A stretch of DNA of 24,776 nt from a virus, in IMG/VR virus record IMGVR_UViG_3300030012_001719, positions 2,764 to 27,539 of that record, one strand, 5' to 3'. The notes beneath the pieces are model-generated. The model was not told where the DNA came from and did not search any database. It saw only the letters and a list, made by a program, of their open reading frames with translations. The position numbers and the translations under genes were made by a program. This document shows, in pieces, positions 14,713 through 20,493 of the stretch (positions are counted from its first letter, which is position 1; every line of letters begins with the position of its first letter).

Positions 14713-15405
14713 ATGGCATATTTAACTGCTAACATACCTTATTTTAAATGTTGGGTAAGAAAAGAGTTTACACACAACCACAGAAAATATCATGGTGAAT
14801 TTATTCACGCATTAGCTATTGCTGTGACTTGTATACCAGACAGATCTTTATCTTTTCAAGTTGTGTTCACTGGTTGTGAAGATGAAGAAAATAGATTAGA
14901 GGGTCCACATGGAGGAGCTATGTGGGCAAGAGTTCCAATACAAGCATTAGTAGCTGATGAAATGTTAGAGGAGTTTCCCCCACGCATACCGAACCACTAT
15001 GTGCAACCTTGGGATTGTAGCAGTAGATATTTTTCCTTAATTAAATATGATCGTACTAGCAGCTCTCCTTGGATAACAAAAATAGATGGTGACTTTTACA
15101 ATGCTAAATATTATTTTACAATTGATTACACTAATGGTGATGAGATGACAAGTTTAGGAGATGATGTAGCTCAACACAAACAATCTCATATACTAGCCAT
15201 TACCAGTGGAGAATTTGAAGGTCAGATAGTAGCACAACCTAATAACAGAGTAAGAGCTACCAATCCTGCATTATGGGTAACAGGTTCTGGTGTACCAGAT
15301 TTTATACCAAGTCAGTATGAGTTTAGTGCTGAAGAAGATGAGTCTTATATGGACCCAGATTATACGTTTGATAATTTGTACGCAAAAAAAAAGGAGACTA
15401 AGTAG
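14713..15405 (+). CDS. Conserved phage protein of unknown function
   Basis: A 230-residue protein beginning MAYLTANIPYFKCWVRKEF and containing HNHRKYHGEF, GAMWARVPIQALV and the C-terminal VAQPNNRVRATNPALWV. I recall this MAYL-ANIP...KYHGEF family from many uncultured marine phages, next to late genes, but without a known function. It is soluble-looking, beta-rich and rich in Trp/Tyr/His, with no recognisable catalytic motif. The start is set by the conserved N-terminus; the AAGG at 14708-14711 is only one base from the ATG, so initiation geometry is unusual. The gene ends in TAG and overlaps the converging gene by 8 bases. Confidence 0.75.
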   Translation: MAYLTANIPYFKCWVRKEFTHNHRKYHGEFIHALAIAVTCIPDRSLSFQVVFTGCEDEENRLEGPHGGAMWARVPIQALVADEMLEEFPPRIPNHYVQPWDCSSRYFSLIKYDRTSSSPWITKIDGDFYNAKYYFTIDYTNGDEMTSLGDDVAQHKQSHILAITSGEFEGQIVAQPNNRVRATNPALWVTGSGVPDFIPSQYEFSAEEDESYMDPDYTFDNLYAKKKETK

Positions 15406-15410
15406 CCTCC
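15384..15410 (-). terminator. Intrinsic terminator of the minus-strand operon
   Basis: Read on the minus strand, GGAGGCT (15410-15404), loop ACTT and AGTCTCC (15399-15393) form a 7-bp stem with one G-U pair, followed by nine T residues (15392-15384). It sits inside the last codons of both converging genes. In the plus direction the U-tract is poor, so it should act mainly on the minus-strand transcript. Confidence 0.75.
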
Positions 15411-15748
15411 CTTTCAATTATTTGATCAACATGGTTTGCTATGTTCTCCAACAAACTTGGTGAGGTGTCTGGTTTACCATAATGGTCAGAAACTTTATTG
15501 CTCACTACTTCTTCACCATCTTTTATAGTCAACCAAACTTCATCATTGTGATCAGGTGTAACCAACCAATCTATCACTTCTTCGTTAACTATTTTATTAG
15601 GTGAATGTTTGTCTTGCATCTCTCCCAAGAAATCAAAAAATTCATCATCACCCAAACCATCACCCAACTTGTCTATACTATCTTTATTCTTAATAGGTTT
15701 AGTCAATATTTTTTTCAACCTATCTTTGTCTACATGCCATGTTCCCAT
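15398..15748 (-). CDS. Hypothetical acidic protein, last gene of the minus-strand operon
   Basis: A 116-residue protein starting MGTWHVDKDRLKKIL, with an Asp/Glu-rich centre (GDGLGDDEFFDFLGEMQD) and a C-terminal helix (SLLENIANHVDQIIEREA). Only one segment looks beta-like (DEVWLTIKDGEEVV). It has a clear AGGAG upstream of ATG 15748, overlaps the upstream stop as TAATG, and ends in TAG inside the terminator hairpin. No family recognised. Small acidic proteins in such early/accessory operons are sometimes DNA mimics or inhibitors, but nothing here proves that. Confidence 0.65.
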   Translation of the reverse strand: MGTWHVDKDRLKKILTKPIKNKDSIDKLGDGLGDDEFFDFLGEMQDKHSPNKIVNEEVIDWLVTPDHNDEVWLTIKDGEEVVSNKVSDHYGKPDTSPSLLENIANHVDQIIEREAT

Positions 15749-15912
15749 TATTTTTCTCCTTTATTATTTTCTGCATAAGATATTGCTACATTTTTATCAG
15801 CAAAATACATAATGTCTGTATTAGTATCTATAAAATTTTCTCTTAACAAAACTATAGGCTTAACCTCATTAGTTTGTTTATCTAACTGATATATTGTTAC
15901 TTTTTTAGTCAT
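15748..15912 (-). CDS. Small hypothetical protein
   Basis: A 54-residue frame from ATG 15912 (preceded by AAAGGAT) to TAA 15748-15750, sharing TAATG with the next gene. It reads MTKKVTIYQLDKQTNEVKPI and ends ISYAENNKGEK. The first half looks like two beta strands and the rest is polar. It fills the gap between two minus-strand genes and has ordinary spacing for this operon. Unknown function. Confidence 0.65.
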   Translation of the reverse strand: MTKKVTIYQLDKQTNEVKPIVLLRENFIDTNTDIMYFADKNVAISYAENNKGEK

Positions 15913-15942
15913 GAAATTATCCTTTCAAATTTTATTAATATT

Positions 15943-16245
15943 TTAATTTATCAAATTTGCTTCTAATTTTTTATAATCTTTTTTATCTAAAGAATGGCTT
16001 TTAGGCAAATAATTAAAATTTGATAACTTTGCTTTTTTCAATGCGTTGTTCCATAATTTAAGAGCCTTATGAGAATGAAATAATACATAATCATTATGTA
16101 ATACTGGAAATTGTTTCTCTAAATTATGTGTTAATATTCCAGATAATTCTGTTACACTTTTAGTTCCCCAAATTGTGCCATCTGTTTTAATAACCATAAC
16201 TTTATCATTTGTTAATTTTACTAATTTTATTTTACTTATTGTCAT
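15943..16245 (-). CDS. Hypothetical small basic protein, first gene behind the palindromic promoter
   Basis: A 100-residue protein from ATG 16245, chosen because AGGAG lies just upstream; a further in-frame ATG at 16281 would put its codons inside the promoter. It starts MTISKIKLVKLTNDKVMVIK (beta-rich) and continues with helical, Lys/Leu-rich sequence (HKALKLWNNALKKAKLSNFN). No recognised family. A promoter with an embedded palindrome (16272-16300) lies immediately upstream, so this gene and the two after it may be regulated separately from the rest of the operon. Confidence 0.65.
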   Translation of the reverse strand: MTISKIKLVKLTNDKVMVIKTDGTIWGTKSVTELSGILTHNLEKQFPVLHNDYVLFHSHKALKLWNNALKKAKLSNFNYLPKSHSLDKKDYKKLEANLIN

Positions 16246-16271
16246 TTTTTTCTCCTTTGTTTTATATAATA

Positions 16272-16300
16272 TATATAGCACATCAAGATGTGATATGCAA
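16272..16300 (-). promoter_or_regulatory. Extended -10 promoter with palindromic spacer
   Basis: On the minus strand TTGCAT (16300-16295) and TATATA (16277-16272) are separated by 17 bases; the bases before the -10 are TGC, giving an extended -10. The expected start near 16265 leaves about 20 bases of leader with AGGAG before ATG 16245. It would drive 16245-15398. Confidence 0.6.
16279..16292. promoter_or_regulatory. Operator-like palindrome inside the promoter spacer
   Basis: CACATC (16279-16284), AA, GATGTG (16287-16292) is a perfect 6+6 palindrome lying wholly between the -35 and -10 boxes of the minus-strand promoter. A protein bound there would block RNA polymerase. No cognate repressor is identified in the window. 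Confidence 0.5.
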
Positions 16301-16374
16301 ATATACGTCTAAAATAGGCAGAAAACTAGGCTTTTGCAAATACTACATTATTTACAAATGACGAATCGATTCTC

Positions 16375-16515
16375 TTAATATAAACTAGCTATAGTTCTTC
16401 TGATCTCGTCTTGTGTAAATGGTTTTCTATTAGATTTTTTTGTAGAAGTATTATTTGTTTTTTTATCTTCTTGCTTTTTATTATTCTTATTATTAGTTTT
16501 ATTATCTTTTGTCAT
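16375..16515 (-). CDS. Small Lys/Asn-rich hypothetical protein
   Basis: A 46-residue frame from ATG 16515 with AAGGAG at good spacing to TAA 16375-16377. The first ~30 residues are a low-complexity Lys/Asn/Thr tail (MTKDNKTNNKNNKKQEDKKT), and the end is an ordered-looking helix (KPFTQDEIRRTIASLY). An in-frame ATG at 16542, directly after the helicase stop, would add nine residues but loses the ribosome site. It is followed by about 75 bases before the next promoter. Function unknown; being short and low-complexity, it is only moderately supported. Confidence 0.5.
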   Translation of the reverse strand: MTKDNKTNNKNNKKQEDKKTNNTSTKKSNRKPFTQDEIRRTIASLY

Positions 16516-16542
16516 AGTATCTCCTTTTTGTAATTTTATCAT

Positions 16543-17949
16543 TTAATCTAAAAACTGTAAAACCTCTTCTCCTAAAGTTTGAGCAGATATAGTCAACTTA
16601 TGTTTTAATGCTTTTATAATAAACTCATCTATTGTTTTAATAGCAACAAGATCTATGTAAGTAACCTTATCTGCTTTCTGTCCACTTCTATGATTACGAG
16701 CTTCTGCTTGTAATCTCTCTTCTAGGTTATAAGAGTTGTTAAAAAATATTTGTACACTTGCAGCATTTAAAGTTAATCCATATCCACCGACACTTGGATT
16801 ACTGACCAAGAACCTCGCACCACGAGGATCATTAAAATTATCAACAACCTCTGATCTTTTCTTTGTGTCACCGTATAAGGTTGCAACAATATTTTCTTTT
16901 TTATATTTCTTTGCTATCTCCCTTGCAATCAATTCTATTGAGTATCGAAAAGAAGACCAGATAATAACTTTGCCTTGTATCTCATCTAAAATATTTAACA
17001 GCTCTCTTAGTTTTGCATTATCTAATTCTATTAATTTACCATCATCAGAATATAAAAAACCACAACATACTTGCTGCAATTTTCCTATCTCAGTTAACTT
17101 GTTATGAATTGAAGATTGTTTATCTTGTATGACAACCCTTGCGTGTTGTTTTAATATTTCATAAGCATTACGCTGCTCATTAGATAAAAATATATTTCTT
17201 CTTTGCCATACTTGAGGTGGTAGATCTAGACAATCTTTTTTTAATACTCTATGTGTGTAATTTAACATTCTTTGTTCTAGCTCATCTAAATTTATAAACT
17301 TACCAGGTATCTCTATCTTTCTATTTCCAGATACAGATATTTTATTCATTAAACAATATCGAGCTTGAAAAGTATAATACGATTTAAAACCAAGTAACTC
17401 TTCATTTAAAAAACCTATTTGGCTCCATAAGTCTAGAGGAGATTTTGTAATAGGTGTGCCTGTTAATATTCTCTTATAACGAACACCCTTACCTAATTTT
17501 ATTACATTCTTTGTTCTCTTAGCAGTTCTGTTTTTTATTGTGGTAGACTCATCTACTACCATCATAGTAGTTAAACCTTTTTGCTCTACTAATTCTAAAC
17601 CTTTGTTGTAGCCAGACTTATGACTAAATGCTTCTATGTTCATAAGATACCAATTTAATTTATCTTTCTTTGGATAAAACTTTTTGTCTATCTTATGTTG
17701 ATAAATATAATTGTTTGCTGAAGAATGTATCTCTATTTCTTTTTTCCAATTTGTATAAACACTATTAGGAGCTAACACATACACCGTATCAAGTAATTGC
17801 ATATTGTATAAGTATACTGCATTGTCGATTGTAACTTTTGTTTTACCAGTTCCCTGTTCCATAAAAAAACCAAACACACTTTGAGTAGCACCTTTTCTAA
17901 GTGCTACTCTTTGGTGTTCATATGGTTGTGTTTTATAATTATGTGACAT
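16543..17949 (-). CDS. SNF2/SF2-family helicase
   Basis: A 468-residue superfamily 2 ATPase. Motif I is EQGTGKTK (31-38), motif II is VVDESTTIKN (131-140, DEST in place of DEAH/DEAD as in SNF2 relatives), motif III is LTGTP (162-166), and motif VI is QAEARNHRSGQ (about 414-424), with VSNPSVGGYGLTL as motif V. It starts at the typical YEHQRVAL Q-motif-like segment (10-17). Such single-chain helicases are common in phage replication/recombination modules and may remodel DNA or displace bound proteins. Its ATG overlaps the upstream gene by 11 bases. It lacks extra accessory domains. It sits in the minus-strand block with ArdC-like and AcrVA2-like genes. Confidence 0.92.
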   Translation of the reverse strand: MSHNYKTQPYEHQRVALRKGATQSVFGFFMEQGTGKTKVTIDNAVYLYNMQLLDTVYVLAPNSVYTNWKKEIEIHSSANNYIYQHKIDKKFYPKKDKLNWYLMNIEAFSHKSGYNKGLELVEQKGLTTMMVVDESTTIKNRTAKRTKNVIKLGKGVRYKRILTGTPITKSPLDLWSQIGFLNEELLGFKSYYTFQARYCLMNKISVSGNRKIEIPGKFINLDELEQRMLNYTHRVLKKDCLDLPPQVWQRRNIFLSNEQRNAYEILKQHARVVIQDKQSSIHNKLTEIGKLQQVCCGFLYSDDGKLIELDNAKLRELLNILDEIQGKVIIWSSFRYSIELIAREIAKKYKKENIVATLYGDTKKRSEVVDNFNDPRGARFLVSNPSVGGYGLTLNAASVQIFFNNSYNLEERLQAEARNHRSGQKADKVTYIDLVAIKTIDEFIIKALKHKLTISAQTLGEEVLQFLD

Positions 17950-18985
17950 AATCTTTTTCTATTATTCCTCTACTTATGTCTCCTCTCCATTGACTGTTTA
18001 TCCACACCCTTTTACCAGATTTGTAGTTTCTCCAAAAACCTATAACTTCGTGATATTTATTTGTATTAACACTTCTTTCATATCTTGTTGTGGTCAATAT
18101 TTTCTTATTTAAATTAACTATTCTATAAGTATAAAAAGGAGTGTCTGTATTATTTCTTTTGACTGCCTCATCTTTATAATCAAAATATTTAAGTTCTTCT
18201 CTTTGGTACTTATCATTCATATTATGGACAATATGCAAAATATACATAGGTAACAATGCTATTTGATTATAAGTCAATCTATTTATTACTCTTTGAACAG
18301 CTCTTTCTTGAATTTTACGATCTAACTTTTTATCATTTAAATTAGTTTTTAAAAACAGACTAGGACTAGGAGTTACATTATTAATATAAAAAGGTAATAC
18401 TTCTTCTATATTAATTTTATGTATGGCATCCACCTTATTATTATGACTTGTAAACGATTTTATTAGACTTTGTTTTACTATTTCTTTAGGATTTTCTAAA
18501 TCGTTAAGGGAATTATCACTTTCGTGAAATATCCAATCTACAGGAAAAAAACTTAATTTGTTGTTATGCACTACAAAACTCATAACACGAGTATTTCTTT
18601 TACCCTCAAGGTCTTTACCCTTCATAAACCAATACCCTTGTAAGTGAAACAAGTTTCCTAAATAAGGTAATATTAAAACATAATTATCTAACATTGGTTT
18701 GAAATAATTAATATCTAAATTTTCACTTGCATTATTTGTTCCTTGATTTCTTTGCATAATATGAGTAGCAGATATGGTATCGTTAATTACAACTTTAGTA
18801 GCATTTGAAAAGCGTAATAAAGTTTCATCTACATATTCTTTATTGTTATCTGCATACTCATCTTTATTAAATTTTACAGTGTTATTAAAAATTCTGAAAT
18901 GTGTCCTTCTAGGATTTTTAATATAATGTTCAATGTTCTTGAAATACACATTGGCATCTACTCCTAATATTTTTAGTTCATTCAT
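17939..18985 (-). CDS. Protein with AcrVA2-like C-terminus
   Basis: A 348-residue protein starting MNELKILGVDANVYFKNI at ATG 18985 (ATGA overlap with the upstream stop). The N-terminal half carries acyl/nucleotide-like alpha/beta sequence without a clear motif (NYVLILPYLGNLFHLQGYWF, SFVVHNNKLSFFPVDW). The last 37 residues, H312-EVIGFWRNYKSGKRVW-IN-x-QWRGDISRGIIEKDY, match the HxVxGxWR...GxxxW(I/V)xxxxRGD...G pattern that I remember from AcrVA2-like phage proteins. AcrVA2 lowers Cas12a levels by acting on its mRNA during translation. The family is far wider than proven anti-CRISPRs, so anti-CRISPR activity is not shown. The gene precedes the helicase with an 11-base overlap. Confidence 0.55.
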   Translation of the reverse strand: MNELKILGVDANVYFKNIEHYIKNPRRTHFRIFNNTVKFNKDEYADNNKEYVDETLLRFSNATKVVINDTISATHIMQRNQGTNNASENLDINYFKPMLDNYVLILPYLGNLFHLQGYWFMKGKDLEGKRNTRVMSFVVHNNKLSFFPVDWIFHESDNSLNDLENPKEIVKQSLIKSFTSHNNKVDAIHKINIEEVLPFYINNVTPSPSLFLKTNLNDKKLDRKIQERAVQRVINRLTYNQIALLPMYILHIVHNMNDKYQREELKYFDYKDEAVKRNNTDTPFYTYRIVNLNKKILTTTRYERSVNTNKYHEVIGFWRNYKSGKRVWINSQWRGDISRGIIEKDYVT

Positions 18986-19275
18986 ATTTTTATTACCTCA
19001 TAAGTTTTTTTACTTTTAGGTTTAACAATTAAATAACTACTAATAACTAATCTTGAGTTCATTCTTGTACCTACAGATTTTGCAGACTGTATTGCATTAG
19101 TCTTTGCATACCGTAGTGCAGATTTGATTTCATTGTCTTCATACTGTGGTAATTTTTTTCTTAGTTTACCAAAAGTATTATGACCTTGTTCAATTAAAAC
19201 TCTAATATCACTAGCTACCTTTTCTTTAAATGCCATAGTCAAAGCAACTTTTCTTTGTACACCATTTACTATCAT
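18982..19275 (-). CDS. Hypothetical basic protein, possible winged-helix
   Basis: A 97-residue basic protein from ATG 19275, preceded by AAGGGG. The segment DIRVLIEQGHNTFGKLRKKLPQYEDNEIKSALRYAK looks like a three-helix arrangement with a recognition-helix-like DNEIKSALRYA, followed by strand-like VISSYLIV. This would fit a small winged-helix DNA-binding protein, but I do not recognise a family. If it binds DNA it is a candidate regulator for the two minus-strand promoters. Start and end are coupled to both neighbours. Confidence 0.6.
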   Translation of the reverse strand: MIVNGVQRKVALTMAFKEKVASDIRVLIEQGHNTFGKLRKKLPQYEDNEIKSALRYAKTNAIQSAKSVGTRMNSRLVISSYLIVKPKSKKTYEVIKI

Positions 19276-19467
19276 TTATTTCCCCTTATAAATACAATAT
19301 TGAGGATTGTTAAAATCTTCTTCAAACATTCCCACTTCATCAAAACCATAGAGAATATATCCGTTTTCTGGATTGCCACCTTTTTCATAAACAATTAAAT
19401 CTCCATCAATTGTTCCTTGAAAAGTATTTATGTCTATATCAATATAATTTTTTTCATTTACAATCAT
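19276..19467 (-). CDS. Small acidic hypothetical protein
   Basis: A 63-residue, acidic protein starting MIVNEKNYIDIDINTFQGTI with AGGAG upstream of ATG 19467. It is predicted beta-rich and compact (DGDLIVYEKGG, GYILYGFDEVGMFEEDF) and ends CIYKGK. No family recognised. It is the second gene after the promoter at 20465-20493. Its start lies just after the hairpin at 19482-19503, which could affect its translation. Confidence 0.6.
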   Translation of the reverse strand: MIVNEKNYIDIDINTFQGTIDGDLIVYEKGGNPENGYILYGFDEVGMFEEDFNNPQYCIYKGK

Positions 19468-19481
19468 AAAATTCTCCTTTC

Positions 19482-19510
19482 GGAAGTGGCTTATGCCACT
19501 TCCTTTTTTT
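19482..19510 (+). terminator. Perfect plus-strand terminator inside the minus-strand operon
   Basis: GGAAGTGGC (19482-19490), loop TTAT and GCCACTTCC (19495-19503) form a perfect 9-bp stem followed by seven T residues (19504-19510) on the plus strand. There is no plus-strand gene just upstream, so it would stop antisense transcription. On the minus strand the hairpin spans the ArdC-like stop codon and is followed by GAAAGGAG, not by T residues, so it should not terminate that strand. Confidence 0.7.
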
Positions 19511-20420
19511 GTTTAGTTTGAAGATTGTCTAAGAAGTCAATTGCTTGTGTAGACTTTGTGATTGCTTGAAGAACCTGTTCTGGTTTATTTTCAAGTTGCT
19601 CAATCCAACCGTTGATATATTGTGCGTGATCAGATCTTACTGTTGGTGATATGCCTAGCAACGCACTTAAGATTGCTGAACCAGACTCTGCTACTAACTC
19701 TTCAATAGCATAAGCATTATCACCGAACCTACCAGAAAAATCTCTCTTCAATCTTTTGTCACTACCTGTCCAATGTACTAACTCGTGAAGTAATGTTCCG
19801 TAATAAGATTCTGTGTCGTGAAAATCTTCAACATTTGGAAGTTTAATAAAGTCACCTTTAGGAGAATAAAAAGCTCTACTACCACCAAAAGTTATTTTTG
19901 CTTTTGTGTTTGCAACATACTTCTCAACATCTTTTAATATATCTACTTTAGAAACTTTAACTTCTTCAGTCTTTTTTTCAATCACATAATCTTGAATTTG
20001 ACTAGCGTTGAAAACAGGATATGCAGTAAAGAACCAAATCTTTTTCTTAATATCTTTTAATTCTCCACTATCAGTGATAATGCCAAAATCTCTATCTTCT
20101 ACTTCTATTTGTTTAGTAAAAAAAACATGATGAGCAGTTTCACCTTTTTTAATATAGTAACCTTTATCTTTCCATGCTTTAGAAGTACCCCACAAATTAC
20201 TTTCGTAACCATTCTCTTGAGCCTCTATTGCTAAGTTAATGATATTAAAACCATTGTAAGTTTTACCATCAGATATTTTTATTGGAAGTTGTAGTTGAGC
20301 TATTTTAGATGACCAACCTTTTTTCCAATTCTTACCCTCAGTCTTTAATAGTTCTTTTAATCTATTAGCTGCCTTGTTAATTATTTCTTTTCTAGTTTGT
20401 TTTGCTTTATATTTTTTCAT
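19491..20420 (-). CDS. ardC: ArdC-like antirestriction protein (ssDNA-binding domain plus zincin)
   Basis: A 309-residue protein from ATG 20420, supported by AAAGGAT upstream; a longer frame to 20465 would start within the promoter. The N-terminal half is the ArdC-type ssDNA-binding domain (IINKAANRLKELL, YNGFNIINLAIEA, WGTSKAWKDKGYYIKKGE, about residues 10-105). The C-terminal half is a zincin metallopeptidase-like domain with HELVHWTGSDKRL: H212, E213 and H216 form HExxH, and EELVAE (240-245) gives the third ligand region. ArdC proteins protect incoming DNA from restriction and appear as domains of polyvalent proteins. It is the first gene of the minus operon. The symbol refers to family resemblance. 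Confidence 0.88.
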   Translation of the reverse strand: MKKYKAKQTRKEIINKAANRLKELLKTEGKNWKKGWSSKIAQLQLPIKISDGKTYNGFNIINLAIEAQENGYESNLWGTSKAWKDKGYYIKKGETAHHVFFTKQIEVEDRDFGIITDSGELKDIKKKIWFFTAYPVFNASQIQDYVIEKKTEEVKVSKVDILKDVEKYVANTKAKITFGGSRAFYSPKGDFIKLPNVEDFHDTESYYGTLLHELVHWTGSDKRLKRDFSGRFGDNAYAIEELVAESGSAILSALLGISPTVRSDHAQYINGWIEQLENKPEQVLQAITKSTQAIDFLDNLQTKQKKEVA

Positions 20421-20464
20421 TTGTTTATCCTTTGTTATTTGTAAAAAATTTGTCTTACGAATCA

Positions 20465-20493
20465 ATATTAATCGAAATTGTAAGTATTGTCAA
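20465..20493 (-). promoter_or_regulatory. Consensus sigma70-type promoter for the minus-strand operon
   Basis: On the minus strand TTGACA (20493-20488, perfect -35) and TAATAT (20470-20465) are separated by exactly 17 bases. Transcription would begin near 20458, leaving about 38 bases with AAAGGAT before the ATG at 20420. It is the best promoter in the window. Confidence 0.8.

Follow-up and report, generated by a model that had tools for sequence, protein, structure and literature searches.

Does the block of minus-strand genes in this viral DNA serve to counter host defences? The original prediction regarded it as a candidate counter-defence island: a single operon with its own promoter and terminator, beginning with an ArdC-like antirestriction zincin and also encoding small proteins, a protein with an AcrVA2-like C-terminus and an SF2 helicase. 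The window, the whole 24,776-nucleotide stretch that we analyzed, is a virus fragment from a source record of 27.5 kb. DNA-level comparison of the window with known phage records returned no match. Its Pam3_gp34-like protein is closest to that of Pelagibacter phage HTVC023P (51%), and we assign the window to a marine phage of the HTVC023P pelagiphage type. Because the phage is akin to this group, its host is probably a SAR11 bacterium. CRISPR and restriction-modification systems are rare in SAR11 (PMC6811365, PMC7029224, PMC9516812), which makes selection for counter-defence hard to explain and leaves the targets unclear.

Nine open reading frames occupy the minus strand at 15.4–20.5 kb, where they had been predicted (Table 1). 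The signs of GC and AT skew reverse across 15–20 kb, and the genes are joined by tight or overlapping junctions with RBS-like sites. Together with the terminator, these features confirm an opposite-strand block. We placed the ardC start at ATG 20420 (309 aa) and not at TTG 20465, because the latter falls inside the -10 box. Similarly, ATG 16245 is the most likely start of gene 15943, since GTG 16281 sits within the second promoter; gene 16375 probably starts at ATG 16515. Scans of the window for tRNAs and Rfam families returned nothing.

Table 1. Predicted features of the minus-strand block, numbered by position in the window.
Feature	Coordinates	Strand	Basis or remark
P1, ardC-unit promoter, TTGACA-17-TAATAT	20465..20493	-	TTGACA invariant in 11 loci
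5' leader hairpin GTAAGA-CAAATT-TTTTAC	20441..20458	-	near predicted transcription start
ArdC, 309 aa	19491..20420	-	PDB 6i89/6sna, Pfam, phrog_7245
9-bp hairpin across ardC stop codon	19482..19503		dG -17, z -6.9; kept in 10 loci
63-aa acidic protein	19276..19467	-	singleton cluster
97-aa basic protein	18982..19275	-	91-97% aa identity in other contigs
348-aa swappable protein, allele A	17939..18985	-	comparison of alleles
SNF2-type SF2 helicase	16543..17949	-	Pfam SNF2-rel_dom, Helicase_C; phrog_62
46-55-aa basic protein	16375..16542	-	also in contig 3300038530_001653
P2, TTGCAT-17-TATATA	16272..16300	-	spacer palindrome CACATCTTGATGTG at 16279-16292
100-aa basic protein	15943..16245	-	85-88% in three other contigs
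54-aa protein	15748..15912	-	96-98% in three contigs
116-aa acidic protein	15398..15748	-	recurs in >=20 contigs
Intrinsic terminator ending block	15388..15415	-	12-bp stem + T-run

The promoter calls rest on conservation, as consensus matches are at chance level: a scan of the window found 32 sites against 38 expected in shuffles. The predicted terminator stands, and the predicted promoter stands through its conservation in 11 loci and not through its consensus match. The leader hairpin (6 bp) is paired in 66 of 66 cells across 11 sequences and has compensatory changes at two pairs. Its covariation score was matched by 0 of 500 shuffles, a control that overstates significance because the sequences are related; slid controls were far lower. 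The z value of the leader hairpin is -2.9. Read on the plus strand, the strong stop-codon hairpin of ardC and its T-run look like an intrinsic terminator. It might stop late plus-strand transcripts that would otherwise cross the island into the replication genes.

A second promoter (16300-16272) appears to start a separate downstream unit, unit 2, so the block is not the single simple operon that had been proposed. The spacer of P2 (16–17 bases) holds a palindrome, which reads CACATCTTGATGTG in the window, GCACATCTAGATGTGC in relative L004 and TCACATTTAAATGTGA in L012. This palindrome promoter is present in single copy in the window and in 8 of 8 relatives, always shortly after the helicase, and it precedes the first downstream cargo gene irrespective of that gene's identity. 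It is absent from the complete sequence of HTVC023P and from the partial sequences of HTVC027P and 023Pt_psg01. The palindrome suggests a dedicated repressor as a candidate regulator. Aca-controlled anti-CRISPR loci offer a parallel, as Aca repressors bind promoter inverted repeats and the window's palindrome lies in the spacer of a promoter that precedes exchangeable small genes. Unlike those loci, the block contains no Aca-family match, and searches of Pfam, NCBIfam and PHROGs found no HTH or Aca match among the small proteins.

The predicted helicase differs from its neighbors in its distribution. The same SNF2 helicase is found on the minus strand at the late/replication junction of HTVC023P, HTVC027P and 023Pt_psg01, with 39–49% identity to the window protein, equal position and strand, and a location beside the DUF7307, Pam3_gp34-like and primase genes. 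HTVC023P gp86 and HTVC027P gp87 are orthologous and identically oriented, but stand alone on the minus strand, whereas the window helicase is accompanied by cargo; in 023Pt_psg01 there is one additional small gene. Among the IMG/VR relatives, the helicase was found wherever the region was covered, and all other minus-strand content varied. More distant relatives (L021–L025) keep the helicase and have no cargo gene upstream of it. The helicase is also one of five conserved proteins behind the published tree of the group (PMC9599517). These comparisons identify it as a core gene of HTVC023P-type phages, not cargo. It must accordingly be removed from the proposed island: conservation as a core function in all relatives is the very outcome that the original prediction had named as contradicting it. 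We also rejected a role as a Zorya-, DISARM- or Dpd-like defence gene, as the PADLOC matches are to generic SNF2 proteins with partial coverage and the gene is core. The early genes of HTVC027P are all without assigned function (PMC12753301), which implies that its helicase is not among them; early expression of the block is not assured.

The genes around the helicase behave as mobile accessory genes. Relatives were fetched from IMG/VR by short peptide patterns, and the counts are lower bounds: among 14 distinct loci, ardC occurs in 13 (alleles ranging from 97% to 54%), gene 17939 in nine and the 97-aa gene 18982 in six. Gene 17939 has two alleles, A and B, that are 24–28% identical and occupy one site with similar flanks. 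Comparison of L002 with L009 revealed sharp borders, with the promoter and ardC 87–100% identical, gene 17939 at 20–48% and the helicase at 98%. A deletion is recorded at positions 7985-8011 of L017, where an eight-codon scar (MIEKDYVA; ATG-ATA-GAA-AAA-GAT-TAT-GTC-GCA-TAA) fuses the opening codons of the L007 B-allele gene to its closing ones at a TGATAGA repeat, and the two contigs match perfectly over 97 and 171 bases on either side. Two contigs that showed none of the group's core genes also carry the B allele, in a form at about 50%.

The small proteins show a similar pattern of gain, loss and exchange. The 63-aa protein was found only in the window among the loci compared. The 97-aa protein is 91–97% identical in relatives, and a 91–95% identical form occurs in contigs without the helicase, DUF7307 and 14713 genes within the sequence covered; longer ORFs clustering with this family in some contigs were set aside as possible chance linkage. 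Other genes take the place of the 100-aa gene in further relatives, and a distant form of the 54-aa protein occurs in two more contigs. Several of the at least 20 contigs that encode the 116-aa protein come from another phage lineage, including contigs whose primase is closest to that of pelagiphage HTVC115P. Presence and absence across relatives thus support the accessory nature of the small genes. The products of 19276, 18982, 16375, 15943, 15748 and 15398 had no meaningful match in Pfam, PHROGs, NCBIfam or PADLOC (the last a collection of defence, not anti-defence, proteins), and our library searches linked neither them nor the 348-aa protein to any family known for defence or for its inhibition. 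With its fixed hotspot, two conserved promoters and sharp borders, the locus would allow systematic, position-based collection of host-takeover and counter-defence candidates.

One gene of the block, ardC, belongs to a known anti-restriction family. The predicted protein matched PDB 6i89/6sna with an E-value of 3e-43, the 6i89 alignment spanning residues 12-308, and both Pfam PF08401 (ArdcN) and PF18818 (MPTase-PolyVal) scored above cut-off; it also matched phrog_7245. At the metal site, HELVH aligned with HEATH of 6i89, and EELVAE with EELIAE. These data identify it as a true, full-length member of the ArdC family and uphold the claim that the block begins with an ArdC-like zincin. It shares with R388 ArdC the full-length match, two domains, and HExxH with a downstream glutamate helix, but differs in belonging to a lytic-type phage of hosts that rarely have type I restriction, and its activity is predicted. 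R388 ArdC acts against HsdRMS, perhaps by coating DNA (PMC7213743). ArdC is encoded by other pelagiphages as well; in HTVC011P it is the second gene, near the genome start and ahead of the RNA polymerase, just as the window ArdC is first in its own unit. Given the match to solved ArdC structures, the role of the R388 protein and the early position in HTVC011P, anti-restriction is the best guess for its function. If it is active, these phages may encounter restriction at a higher rate than one would expect from SAR11 genomes; alternatively, they may infect hosts not represented among the sequenced strains.

The gene is nonetheless not universal. It is missing from L011, which retains the promoter and leader, and from the equivalent position in the isolates HTVC023P, HTVC027P and 023Pt_psg01. 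We considered whether ArdC offsets restriction sites that have not been avoided, and rejected this proposal: GANTC occurs at 0.53 of expectation in the window, similar to the 0.46 of the ArdC-less L011. The ratios do not separate contigs with and without ArdC, which argues that ArdC is unlinked to site avoidance. GANTC bias has been published for some pelagiphage clades (PMC9516812), and the window's ratio echoes it; the ratio in HTVC023P is 0.88.

Overall, the block is best described as a modular hotspot of accessory genes in a phage group already known; it combines one established anti-restriction family with several genes that are candidates for host interaction. A counter-defence role for the whole block is plausible; ArdC and the accessory small genes fit the island that was proposed, while the core helicase, the lack of anti-defence matches in the searched libraries and a tenuous AcrVA2 link do not. 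On balance, we lean towards a variable hotspot where the late block meets the replication block, centred on the core helicase, in which ArdC shields DNA, the 348-aa and small proteins interact with the host, some of them in counter-defence, and a repressor controls unit 2. Comparison of the loci shows that recombination and short-repeat deletion exchange, add and remove small genes at fixed positions, with the helicase, two promoters, 5' hairpin, stop-codon hairpin and terminator retained. By analogy with R388, ArdC would most likely coat or occupy incoming phage DNA via its ssDNA-binding N-domain and thereby block type I restriction. The variable N-terminal part of the 348-aa protein likely meets a host target, its C-terminal domain being conserved, and the small proteins probably serve in interaction with the host. 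Unit 2 is probably regulated by a dimeric repressor whose target would be the palindrome that separates the -35 and -10 boxes.

The block could instead be a replication/recombination module, in which ArdC acts as an ssDNA-binding protein, the helicase remodels forks or strips off proteins close to the replication genes, the small proteins aid host takeover and nothing is specifically anti-defence. We consider this unlikely, if deserving of attention: the core helicase adjoins the primase block, R388 ArdC binds ssDNA with a protease site that is dispensable in conjugation (PMC7213743), and the rarity of restriction systems in the hosts (PMC7029224) fits as well. However, the absence of ArdC from L011 and the isolates indicates that it is dispensable for replication, and swapping of alleles is atypical of replication factors. 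The rapid replacement of cargo genes, and their exchange with other lineages of pelagiphages, would fit any arms race, including one between phages, but a role of the cargo in superinfection exclusion and not in evasion of host defence seems quite improbable, as no exclusion role is known for ArdC.

Returning to the hotspot that we favor, its 348-aa protein had been described as having an AcrVA2-like C-terminus. This region contains a conserved domain (HxVxGFxRxYKSGKxVWI) with the GxxRxYKxGK..W motif of the PHROG 10678 superfamily. Alignment to PHROG 10678 with hhalign gave 97.7%, or 89% with the seed motif masked, and membership survived masking of eight fetch columns (89–98%). By profile comparison, then, the domain belongs to a broad superfamily of phage proteins, PHROG 10678 among them. 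The proteins of that family (Brevibacillus phage Sundance gp162, Faecalibacterium phage FP_Brigit) have the same C-terminal domain but are shorter, about 210–250 aa, with an N-terminal part unlike that of the 348-aa protein.

AcrVA2 itself (7ci1, 7ci2) is similar in length to the 348-aa protein and, like it, has a conserved C-terminal motif of the [R/I]G[H/F]-W type, whereas the N-terminal two thirds of the 348-aa protein are unrelated in sequence. Using a query checked to be identical to 7ci1, we found no significant match of gene 17939 or its alleles to AcrVA2 or an 11-member AcrVA2 alignment by phmmer, hmmsearch or hhalign, and 7ci1 was not among the best 50 Foldseek matches listed for an AlphaFold query model too weak to settle the fold (pLDDT 58; a second model from a deeper alignment was worse, at 43). 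We therefore rejected direct homology over the whole protein. A small family of viral-contig proteins of about 290–300 aa (L099–L102) resembles AcrVA2 as well as the C-terminal domain of PHROG 10678. This family aligned with AcrVA2 and the 348-aa protein alike, reaching 96.3% against AcrVA2, or 34% with the seed motif masked, where none of 40 shuffles exceeded 2.1%; since its members were picked by a motif resembling AcrVA2's own, the bridge is suggestive only, though useful for work on AcrVA2 origins. The AcrVA2-like C-terminus thus persists as a motif type and through this bridge, not in direct tests, and the link is weakly supported.

AcrVA2 acts by translation-coupled loss of Cas12a mRNA (PMC13131331). 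It is a long shot that the 348-aa alleles form a widespread phage family in which the C-terminal effector domain stays constant and the N-terminal recognition domains are exchanged; AcrVA2-like recognition of the nascent chains of particular host proteins would then cause loss of their mRNAs, directed at non-CRISPR targets in SAR11. That the protein is a true AcrVA2, a Cas12a-directed anti-CRISPR, is most improbable despite the shared motif type and the bridge, given the failed direct searches, the drop on masking and the lack of any report of type V CRISPR in SAR11 in the cited literature.

Two further genes of the window deserve mention. The last plus-strand gene before the island (14713-15405) matches PHROG 3704, listed as ferredoxin; it is 28% identical to HTVC023P gp44, which is annotated as PurM, in disagreement with the ferredoxin label, and is located elsewhere in HTVC023P. 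Finally, a 2OG-Fe(II) oxygenase or 'ferrochelatase'-like gene lies amid the late genes at 839-1396, comparable to HTVC023P gp65-gp67.
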